5,410 nucleotides of DNA from Verrucomicrobiota bacterium (GTDB lineage: Bacteria; Verrucomicrobiota; Verrucomicrobiia; Verrucomicrobiales; DEV007): assembly GCA_027618625.1 (NCBI GenBank), contig JAQCER010000299.1:1-5410 (forward strand), in the 5' to 3' direction. The number at the start of each line of letters is the position of its first letter. Within the stretch, counting starts at the first letter, position 1. The position numbers and the translations under genes were made by a program. The notes under the pieces were generated by a model that had not been told where the DNA came from, did not search any database, and worked only from the letters and a program-made list of their open reading frames with translations. Below are positions 2,804 through 5,410 of the stretch, one piece after another.

Positions 2804-4513
2804 ATGAAAACCCCTGAGACACGCTTCGAGTCTGAGTTATCGTTTGTATTGAATGATCCCGTTACAGAGCTGCCCAGGCTCCTGCGACTGGTGAAAAAAG
2901 AAGGGGGCATCATTGGCGATCCCGTGCCGGGAACGGGGGCCCTGGTGGACAGATACTTTGATACTCAGGACTGGGATCTCTACAATGCCGGCTGGTCTTA
3001 CCGTTTCCGCGATGCTTCCCCACTGAACCGGAGCGTCAGCCTTGAGACATTGCCAAGACTGGCAGATGAGAGTGGCAGTGGACGGCACGAAGGAAAAGAG
3101 GTTGAACTCACTGCAGACGGCGGGTTACCGATCAGCTCTGCGTTACTGATCTCGGAAGCGCCGCTCAGCGATGCGCTGCACGAGATCGTCAAGAATAGCA
3201 ACGCGGGCTTGTCGGAGCTATTTCGAATGAGCACGGAGCGCGCAAGCTACCGGCTGTCTGTGGACGGTGAGGACATCCTGCTGAGTGTTGATGATACGAC
3301 CGTAGACGTGGATGAAAGCACCCGTTCGGCGCATCCAGAACATTTTTACGAAGTGGAGTTCAAGCTGGAGGGCGGCGAGGGGCAACGCCTGCGTCATCTC
3401 GCGGGTCGGATTGAGAAGAAGCTGGGCCTTTCGAGGTCCCGCTTGAGTAAGTTTGAGAGAGGCCTGCAGGTTACCGGGGGGATGCCTTCAGTGGTTCTGT
3501 TAGAGGACGCGGATGACGGGCTGGAGTGCGGAGCTGAGGCTACCGTTGGGGAAATCGCGAGGGCATTTTTCCTATCTCATTTCCGCTCGTTCCTGTTGAT
3601 GGAAGGCACCGTTCGCGAAGGGGGCGATCCCAGGGCAGTGCGCAAGATGCGGGTGGCGAGCCGCCAGCTCCAGGTAGGCCTGGAGGTGTTCGCGGATTAT
3701 CTTCCAGCACCCATGATCAAGGCGCTTCGCTCGGAACTCCGTTGGATCAGCAGGAAGTTAGGGGAGGTGCGGGATCTCGACGTTTTCAGCGATTTCCTGA
3801 CGGCGGAAGTTGCAGATGTGGAGTTGACTTTGCCCGAGTTGCAGGCTCACGTCGCCGCTTCCTGGGCAGCGGCGCGGAGCGCTCTCGTTAAGGCTCTCAC
3901 CAGCGCGCGGTTCCTCCGCTTGCGACGTGACTTCGCGGCTTTCTTGAACTCCAGGAGTTTGTGGAATGAGCTGGGAGGTGATGTCGCGGCTTTGCAGATT
4001 GCAGAGAATGCGTTGCTGCCTGCTCTGGCCCTGTTGCGGAAAGGCGGATCGGCGATCGATGATGCATCAGCCGAAGCGAAGCTCCATCGGTTACGGCTCG
4101 CCTGTAAAGAGTTTCGCTATCGCCTTGGGCTTTTTGAACCGCTCGTTCCCGGCGGCCTGCAAATGTTTATCAAAGCCTGCAAGTCTCTGCAGAATGGTCT
4201 CGGGGTTCGCTGTGATGTTTTCGTTGCCCGCGGACGCATCAACGACTTCTGCAAATCGAATGAACTGGGCGACGTTGAACGGGACGAGCTAAAAAAGCTG
4301 AAGAAATTGCTGAAGGGTCGCCTGCGCGATCTGAAGGGAGGATATGCCGAGAAATGGCGGGACTTCTCTTCGTCTGTGCGGGGTAAGAAACTGCGCAATC
4401 GCCTCAGAGAGCCCGCAGTGGAGGAGGCGCGCGATGAAGATGGGCAACTCACGCAAGACACGACGGAGAAGGTGGCGGAGTTACGTCCGGTAGATGAGTA
4501 CGTGATCCGCTAG
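2804..4513 (+). CDS. CYTH and CHAD domain-containing protein
   Basis: 569 residues. Residues about 7-222 form a CYTH (triphosphate tunnel) domain: ExE at 9-11, YFDT at 51-54, YRFR at 66-69, KEVEL at 98-102, TERASYRL at 144-151, VDD at 162-164, YEVEFKL at 182-188 and SRLSKF at 212-217. Residues about 245-525 form a CHAD helical domain with two repeats: MRVASRQL (282-289) with LGEVRDLDVF (319-328), then LHRLRLACKEFRYRL (427-441) with RCDVFVA (469-475). The family acts on or binds inorganic triphosphate and polyphosphate; E. coli YgiF is a CYTH-CHAD triphosphatase. The protein is cytosolic, with no signal peptide. Oddities: the ExExK lysine is Ser13, and the usual CHAD His in the first repeat is Arg280, while His428 in the second is kept. 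The C-terminal 30 residues are an acidic extension. The start is supported by GGTGA and by the CYTH motif beginning at residue 8. Stop is TAG. Family call is firm; catalytic activity is uncertain. Confidence 0.5.
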   Translation: MKTPETRFESELSFVLNDPVTELPRLLRLVKKEGGIIGDPVPGTGALVDRYFDTQDWDLYNAGWSYRFRDASPLNRSVSLETLPRLADESGSGRHEGKEVELTADGGLPISSALLISEAPLSDALHEIVKNSNAGLSELFRMSTERASYRLSVDGEDILLSVDDTTVDVDESTRSAHPEHFYEVEFKLEGGEGQRLRHLAGRIEKKLGLSRSRLSKFERGLQVTGGMPSVVLLEDADDGLECGAEATVGEIARAFFLSHFRSFLLMEGTVREGGDPRAVRKMRVASRQLQVGLEVFADYLPAPMIKALRSELRWISRKLGEVRDLDVFSDFLTAEVADVELTLPELQAHVAASWAAARSALVKALTSARFLRLRRDFAAFLNSRSLWNELGGDVAALQIAENALLPALALLRKGGSAIDDASAEAKLHRLRLACKEFRYRLGLFEPLVPGGLQMFIKACKSLQNGLGVRCDVFVARGRINDFCKSNELGDVERDELKKLKKLLKGRLRDLKGGYAEKWRDFSSSVRGKKLRNRLREPAVEEARDEDGQLTQDTTEKVAELRPVDEYVIR

Positions 4514-4528
4514 AGGGCACCCATTACT

Positions 4529-4547
4529 TTAGCAATCTGTTAGCAAT
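4529..4547 (-). repeat. Short direct repeat at the 3' end of the SelW-like gene
   Basis: ATTGCTAA occurs twice on the minus strand (4547-4540 and 4536-4529), 11 bases apart. The first copy is read as part of P-L-L-T and the second supplies the last Cys codon and the TAA stop. It may be a small duplication that extended the C-terminus, or chance. Confidence 0.5.
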
Positions 4548-4750
4548 GGCCCGACTTCCCCTGGCTTGGGGAAACGTCCCGTTTTGGACTTCGCGTAGAC
4601 CGTGGTTCCATCCACGCGGACTTCAAAGATTCCGCTGCCGCCCGCGATGAGTTTGCTTTCTACGCCGTGGGATTGCTTCAGCTCAGCTGCTACACGAGCA
4701 GCTTCGGGCTGGTAGTTTCATACGGAGCAGTATTCGATTTCTACGTTCAT
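4529..4750 (-). CDS. SelW-like selenoprotein (Rdx / SelT-SelW-SelH family) with in-frame UGA for selenocysteine
   Basis: ATG at 4750, TAA at 4531-4529, one internal TGA at 4720-4718; 73 residues if the TGA is read as Sec11. The N-terminus MNVEIEYCSVU gives the redox motif C8-x-x-U11 directly after the first beta strand, followed by NYQPEAARVAAEL (helix). Then come GGSGIFEVRVDG (strands, residues 37-48) and KTGRFPKPGE (56-65), all hallmarks of the small Rdx thioredoxin-like family. Relatives carry CxxC or CxxU at this site, so the TGA replaces a redox residue, not a random one. A SECIS-like hairpin follows at once. Expected role: cytosolic thiol or selenol oxidoreductase of unknown partner. 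It starts 9 bases after the AIM24 stop, in the same frame, so nothing longer is possible upstream; no Shine-Dalgarno is seen, suggesting translational coupling. A Cys ends the protein (C73). Alternatives are a nonsense mutation or a sequencing error; the hairpin and motif position argue against these. Sec machinery genes are not in the window. Confidence 0.5.
4679..4720 (-). promoter_or_regulatory. Bacterial SECIS-like hairpin following the UGA codon
   Basis: On the minus strand the UGA (4720-4718) is followed by six bases, then CAGC (4711-4708), an internal-loop CCGA, AGCTGCT (4703-4697), loop CGTGT (4696-4692), AGCAGCT (4691-4685), GA, and GCTG (4682-4679). The 7-bp upper stem and 4-bp lower stem are both perfect. 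The apical loop starts 21 bases after the UGA and has G as its second base. Bacterial SECIS elements are described as having a short apical loop with a G in its first two positions, roughly 16-37 bases from the UGA, so both criteria are met. It would be bound by SelB to deliver Sec-tRNA. No bulged U like that of E. coli fdhF is evident. Confidence 0.5.
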
Positions 4751-4759
4751 ACGAATGTG

Positions 4760-5410
4760 TTATCTGCCTGCGTGTTGGTAAACGACTTCTTCGTAGGGTT
4801 GGACGACCACGAATCCTTCGCCTTTGAATTCCATCTGAATCGATTCGCCGCTGCCGCGCCCGACTAACGTCTTCAGGGACACGTCTTTCTTAAATGCGGG
4901 CTCAAGATTTCCTGACCAGGCGATGGTGGCATTCGGGTCGGTGACGACTGGATTTTCAGAGGTGACTCGGAGGGTCATCGGATCGTAGTGGGAAGTGATG
5001 GCAATGAGGCCAGTGCCTTCCAGGCGGACATTAAACAATCCTCCAGCCATCATCGCGGTGATCTTTCTCATCATCTTGATGGTGTTTTTGATCGAGGTTT
5101 CGAACGCCACAGCACGTCATTGCCATTGACGACGATCGCCTCGTTCTCAAGGCCGATGATGATCACCTTTTTGCCGGAATCTGCCAGATATACTTTGCCG
5201 GTGCCTTCAGCTTTGGTCAGGCGCGTTCCTTCACCGCTGACGGCCTTTTTCAAAAGATTCCCCAGGCCCTGTTCCAATACGCCCTCGCGTGTGAATTTTA
5301 CATTGCCCCGGTATGCAACCATCGATCCCATCTTAGTCCAGACTGTGCCGTTGAGGTTCACTTCCAGCAGTCGCTCGGTTTCCAATTCGAACAGACCCTG
5401 GCCACGGTCG
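4760..5410 (-). pseudogene. AIM24 family protein, frameshifted near 5108 and 5'-truncated by the window edge
   Basis: Two frames together give one AIM24-type (DUF124) protein. Right part: about 100 codons from the window edge to 5110, with [43 protein letters not shown] and VNGNDVL. Left part: 115 codons from 5107 to 4763, with [57 protein letters not shown] and GEGFVVVQPYEE, stop TAA at 4762-4760. Family members read straight through NGND-x-LAFE, so the two bases at 5109-5108 (TG on the minus strand, after CTG) look like an extra dinucleotide; a one-base deletion would instead give an added Val. No slippery heptamer suits a programmed shift. It is therefore a real mutation or a sequencing error. 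All motifs outside the break are intact, which suggests a very recent lesion or error. AIM24 proteins form beta-barrel-like folds; bacterial function is poorly defined. The SelW-like gene follows after 9 bases, implying co-transcription. Confidence 0.5.

Follow-up and report, generated by a model that had tools for sequence, protein, structure and literature searches.

Is the TGA codon that interrupts a short minus-strand reading frame in the draft genome of an uncultured Verrucomicrobiota bacterium the end of a gene, or is it read as selenocysteine (Sec, U)? The frame lies at positions 4529-4750 of the window, i.e. the whole 5,410-nucleotide stretch of DNA analysed here, which forms contig 283 of an assembly of 941 contigs (4.82 Mb, 70.8% complete, 2.5% contamination). 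A first-pass annotation, made from the letters of the window, had proposed a hidden selenoprotein of the Rdx/SelW family at this place. We find, with a probability of about 95%, that the minus strand at 4529-4750 holds an Rdx/SelW-family gene of 73 codons whose in-frame UGA, codon 11, is predicted to encode selenocysteine; the product would carry a C-S-V-U redox motif on what is predicted to be a thioredoxin-like fold. The window gene is a previously unannotated, predicted SelW-like selenoprotein of a kind that is already known, as the first-pass annotation correctly stated; CxxU proteins of the SelW-like family have been described in bacteria since 2005. The surprise lies in its relatives with two predicted selenocysteines, which matter more than the window gene itself.

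The SelW-like gene and its family

Translation of 4750-4529 on the minus strand with TGA as U yields 73 residues, beginning with MNVEIEYCSVUNYQPEAARV, up to a TAA stop codon. The TGA of codon 11 (4718..4720) is the sole codon in the frame that needs a non-standard reading. Together with codon 8, a TGC at 4727..4729, it encodes the redox pair of a C-S-V-U motif, in agreement with both the earlier description of the gene and the C-x-x-U criterion for SelW-like selenoproteins. With codon 11 read as cysteine, the protein scores 65.1 bits against the Pfam Rdx profile PF10262 (cut-off 22.6), which bears out the proposed family. The window protein also matches the NCBIfam models TIGR02174 (52.0 bits vs. 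a cut-off of 34.2) and NF041051, ‘SelT/SelW/SelH family (seleno)protein’ (89.2 bits vs. 88); the latter match is barely over the cut-off, and the short name of that model refers to Campylobacterota. A search of the whole genome recovered the same locus, with one TGA inside.

As had been supposed, ordinary gene calling misses the gene: the list of open reading frames (ORFs) of at least 50 amino acids does not contain it, and a plus-strand ORF at 4667-4867 covers its first codons. Searched against 5.8 billion proteins, the full-length sequence matched three (48, 52 and 52 amino acids), all of which begin downstream of the UGA; one of these represents the gene from the same genus, which is public as a 48-residue ‘Rdx family protein’ in which the redox motif is missing. 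Truncated or missed SelW genes are treated as a recognised annotation problem in the passages seen of PMC4607533. The window gene is thus a well-supported example of a selenoprotein shortened by standard gene finding.

The AlphaFold model of the window protein (pLDDT 89.3) points to a SelW-type thioredoxin-like fold. When it was compared with the PDB, the 21 best chains were all bacterial SelW-type proteins, with TM scores by query length of 0.89-0.92. Among solved structures, 2fa8 (Agrobacterium), 3dex (Streptomyces) and 2npb (mouse SelW) score 0.91, 0.90 and 0.66, respectively, and match in sequence too; the solved SelW-related proteins share 24-39% sequence identity with the window protein, and mouse SelW fits much less well. 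According to the parts seen of two environmental surveys, the SelW-like family is the largest selenoprotein family in both the Sargasso Sea (48 genes, PMC1088965) and the Global Ocean Sampling data (427 genes, PMC2398784). The window gene shares with those ocean proteins, as far as these parts describe them, the Rdx/SelW family, the C-x-x-U motif and a bacterial selenocysteine insertion sequence (SECIS) hairpin past the UGA. It differs from them in being unannotated, in belonging to a Verrucomicrobiota draft genome and in adjoining an AIM24 gene, a pairing kept here only within the genus.

Predicted decoding of the in-frame UGA

The UGA is conserved among close relatives. The protein of a same-genus genome (G001) is 86% identical and has TGA at the identical codon. 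In a survey of the family, 22 of 74 genomes match, one of them (G466) with a contig-edge fragment that lacks the motif, and TGA stands at the second motif position in 21 of the 21 intact copies, the window gene included. The earlier view that a chance TGA at this residue is unlikely is strengthened accordingly. The near relatives carry TGA and not the TGC or TGT that would have pointed to an error here. More distant relatives mostly have cysteine at this position. A sample of 387 genomes across the phylum gave 43 matches, 8 with one TGA and 35 with none, and all 22 of the TGA-free loci that were fetched (of the 35) encode C-x-x-C. In a collection of species genomes, 30 of 31 loci were counted (L046, whose match is limited to residues 34-72, was dropped): 8 have TGA at the position, 21 have cysteine and one has tyrosine. 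The eight TGA loci belong to Verrucomicrobiia, Planctomycetota, four Acetobacteraceae, Devosia and Chloroflexi. Exchange between selenocysteine and cysteine at a single position typically marks selenoproteins, and supports selenocysteine at the UGA position.

Downstream of the UGA, the mRNA can form a SECIS-like hairpin (4685..4703, minus strand) with a 7-bp stem that starts 14 nt past the codon and a CGUGU loop (4692-4696) that lies 21 nt past it. The bacterial SECIS model, as given in the part seen of a 2026 review (PMC13188914), has a loop of 3-9 nt, a stem of 4-16 bp, a G in loop position 1 or 2, a distance of 16-37 nt from the UGA and a folding energy of -7.5 kcal/mol or lower. Judged against these published values, the window hairpin fits throughout (5-nt loop, 7 bp, G in second position, 21 nt, -15.7 kcal/mol). 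This energy is that of a 46-nt stretch, and 4 of 200 shuffles folded as well.

The pairing is also conserved. In an alignment of 20 distinct sequences, pairing at the five apical positions holds in 95% of 100 cells (85% when seven pairs are counted), the consensus fold agrees, and shifting the partners by 1-3 columns lowers the pairing to 20-68%. Four of the five apical pairs are changed on both sides in some sequence, and the covariation score (0.496, against 0.237) was reached by none of 500 shuffles. It should be noted that this alignment left out stretches that are identical to others (L056, L069 and L020) and the alphaproteobacterial loci L036-L039 and L042, in which the hairpin is read as about one codon closer to the UGA, and that it retained a degenerate copy (L068, see below). 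A second alignment of 12 later loci gave 59 of 60 apical cells paired, two of the five apical pairs altered on both sides and a covariation score that again no shuffle (0/500) matched; loci L168-L180 were read but stand outside the pairing counts. G occupies loop position 2 in 20/20 and 12/12 sequences of the two sets.

The first-pass annotation had named the selenocysteine machinery as a check to be made, and most of it is found in the genome itself: tRNA-Sec with anticodon TCA (62.3 bits vs. a cut-off of 47), selA (482 vs. 268) and selD (263 vs. 125). selD is fused to an N-terminal pyridine nucleotide-disulfide oxidoreductase domain (L017, 1384-3681, minus strand) and has no in-frame TGA; the model ‘fusion_not_SelD’ stays below its cut-off on this fusion (470 vs. 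700). selB was recovered only as its 3′ end. A query with SelB of the same genus located the final 24 residues (92% identical, E 4e-6) at 8954-9025 of contig C61, which has 9026 bases. Because these codons sit at the very end of a contig, selB has most likely been cut by the assembly rather than being missing. The SelB profile hits seven places in the genome, all below the cut-off; one is release factor 3 by Pfam, another, judged by its sequence, is presumably IF-2, and the remainder are taken for EF-Tu and EF-G by length alone.

Across 57 genomes, our own included, selB or tRNA-Sec occurs in 19 of the 19 that carry the gene vs. 8 of the 38 that do not (Fisher p 3e-9). The figures are 16/19 vs. 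6/38 for SelB alone (p 8e-7), the three gene-bearing genomes without a SelB match (ours among them) being 71-85% complete, and 14/19 vs. 8/38 for tRNA-Sec alone (p 3e-4), which was searched across genomes with stricter filters that lose weak matches. These p values serve as a guide only, as related genomes are non-independent, and the 19 include G044 with its degenerate copy. That copy (L068) is a decayed SelW gene with one TGA, two TAG and three TAA codons, in a genome that retains selB and tRNA-Sec.

Four other accounts of the TGA, or of the protein, have to be set against this evidence. That the codon is a sequencing error or a sign of gene decay might be suspected from the fragmentary assembly, from the adjoining AIM24 gene, whose frame is disrupted where it differs by 2 bases from its relative, and from the existence of a decayed multi-stop copy in G044; yet the same TGA is present in the same-genus genome and in 21/21 intact family copies, and the frame is otherwise open and resembles the family. 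Sequencing error was rejected, as the TGA is retained in independent genomes, and we regard error and decay together as very improbable. An open frame once UGA is read would equally be expected if the whole lineage read UGA as one of the ordinary amino acids (Trp, Gly or Cys). The first-pass annotation had raised such a reassignment as a possible objection, but UGA terminates four family-matched genes of this genome, namely: release factor 3, HrpB helicase, a CNNM/CBS protein and thiamine-phosphate kinase. Seven of 16 long ORFs in the fetched stretches of the genome end in TGA; five of these were scanned, four having a family match and one (L002) none, while two lay outside the scan, one in L003 and one in the window, where it lies on the plus strand opposite the large minus-strand gene. 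With ordinary genes of this genome also stopping at UGA, the codon does not serve as a general sense codon, and general reassignment was rejected; the presence of a tRNA-Sec with anticodon TCA and of cysteine at this position in relatives likewise makes this account practically negligible. The public 48-52-residue products starting past the UGA could be taken to mean that translation normally stops at the UGA, or that a short product begins after it, the read-through form not being made. These are gene-finder outputs, though, such a product would be without the redox motif, and the UGA and the hairpin are both conserved, all of which leaves this a highly improbable account. A protein that contains selenocysteine but uses C8 and U11 to bind a metal or organometal, or merely to dock, is in our view unlikely. 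The literature passages searched name no substrate of a bacterial SelW-like protein, which leaves room for it, but a thioredoxin-like fold that carries C-x-x-U, and C-x-x-C in homologues, is the usual arrangement for redox chemistry.

Several observations weigh against selenocysteine at codon 11 as well. Full-length selB was not found in the assembly, with no match of the SelB profile over its cut-off, and in a fragmented draft with 2.5% contamination, parts on separate contigs could in principle derive from another organism. Regarding the hairpin, some shuffles reached two of five covariation measures: for pairs with both sides changed and for pair types, respectively, 28 and 14 of 500 did so in the 20-sequence set and 32 and 29 of 500 in the 12 later sequences. 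Folding energy is weak in some relatives (z -0.96 for L020 and -0.19 for L060), an 86-nt stretch of L020 adopts another fold, and Rfam gave no match for the window and eight loci. Selenocysteine at codon 11 remains the reading that we prefer. Under it, SelD would supply the selenophosphate with which SelA turns seryl-tRNA-Sec into selenocysteyl-tRNA-Sec, and SelB would bind the hairpin and bring the selenocysteyl-tRNA-Sec to the UGA. The product would be a small selenol/thiol oxidoreductase or redox adaptor, to which the motif and the predicted fold point, with the C8-U11 pair alternating between a selenenylsulfide and a reduced form.

Relatives with two predicted selenocysteine codons

Twelve of the 21 intact copies in the family have TGA at the first motif position as well, as in Y-U-G-M-U-N-Y (genomes G030, G024, G015, G014, G017, G031, G019, G460, G468, G463, G462 and G453). 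The window gene, with TGC at codon 8, is not among these U-x-x-U genes. Two more, from a second family (G685 and G530), come from a survey of 386 genomes in the order, so that 14 of the 74 matching genomes, in five genera, have U-x-x-U; 55 have one TGA, and the remaining five hold fragments or broken copies (G044, G466, G581, G630 and G663). For genomes whose locus was not fetched, these totals rest on the count of TGA codons. Three genomes (G541, G603 and G524) have a second SelW copy that is free of TGA. Separately, G019 carries a second, divergent Rdx-like gene with C-P-I-U (L161, 1501-1656) beside its U-x-x-U gene.

Each U-x-x-U locus has one hairpin after the second TGA (L051/L069, L052, L053, L054, L056, L057, L064, L143, L150, L151, L156, L157, L171 and L175, for the 14 genomes). 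Its position is kept in all 14, with the loop 21 nt from the second UGA and 33 nt from the first. Because both distances fall within the 16-37 nt range of the SECIS model, the single hairpin is placed to serve both codons, and we infer that it does so. The window gene probably belongs to a Verrucomicrobiota SelW group in which selenocysteine has replaced the first motif cysteine as well, a change that affects at least two families and five genera and creates a U-x-x-U diselenide site. The two UGAs of this site, 12 nt apart, would be decoded via one SECIS hairpin. A tree of 35 SelW proteins requires 2 changes between C-x-x-U and U-x-x-U (bootstrap range 2-4). With 10 of 32 inner branches well supported, it is compatible with both one and several origins of U-x-x-U.

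UxxU forms of SELENOW have been published for amphioxus and the alga Ostreococcus lucimarinus, according to the part seen of PMC7539508. They are of the same family and show the same double change from cysteine to selenocysteine as the 14 relatives of the window gene. They are eukaryotic, whereas the window gene is CxxU and its bacterial UxxU relatives have one hairpin inside the coding frame, just past the second UGA. Two selenocysteines in one redox motif also occur in UxxU Prx-like proteins of marine bacteria, which belong to another protein family (PMC2398784, in the part seen). For prokaryotes, the portions seen of a 2022 review (PMC9312934), the 2026 review (PMC13188914, one Sec) and the 2008 ocean survey (PMC2398784) all give the SelW-like family as CxxU, and no bacterial UxxU SelW was found in the literature covered, which comprised passages of some papers. 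If our reading is true, these genes are a bacterial two-selenium form of a family catalogued in prokaryotes only as CxxU. They would give a natural series, from C-x-x-C through C-x-x-U to U-x-x-U, within a single fold of some 70 residues, and would offer a compact system for asking how one SECIS hairpin could serve two UGAs 12 nt apart and what role a diselenide plays.

Neighbouring genes and viral SelW loci

Directly upstream of the SelW-like gene, and not part of the selenoprotein, is an AIM24-family gene on the same strand (4760..5409, minus), which is present as two overlapping frames (4760-5110 and 5071-5409). Its stop lies 9 nt before the SelW start, which suggests that the two are co-transcribed. 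The frame change at 5109-5110 (minus strand) comes with two extra bases relative to the gene of the same genus, either real damage or an assembly error. By tblastn, AIM24 is found in 3 of 28 SelW loci (L001, which is the window, and L020 and L061, which represent one gene) and is absent from the other 25, most of which were examined with 1.5-kb flanks. A conserved AIM24-SelW pair was therefore rejected, the pairing being found only within the genus, and nine upstream proteins that were scanned have no common family. On the other side, convergent with the SelW gene, the plus strand at 2804-4513 encodes a CHAD protein, part of which is CYTH-like (23.1 bits vs. a cut-off of 23.2). A large protein is encoded at 2-2110 on the minus strand, with weak matches to CBM60 and PA14 that are below the cut-off.

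C-x-x-U SelW genes are also present on two IMG/VR viral contigs, at 2001-2219 of L166 (71.8 kb) and 1540-1746 of L167 (14.5 kb). Their hairpins (-6.1 and -5.6 kcal/mol) fall short of the -7.5 kcal/mol of the SECIS model and are no better than shuffles, and no relative was found in 50,697 named phage records. L166 and L167 share similar neighbouring small genes, and few of the neighbours match PHROGs (4 of 8 proteins at E 0.01); their SelW may possibly be a phage-borne selenoprotein.
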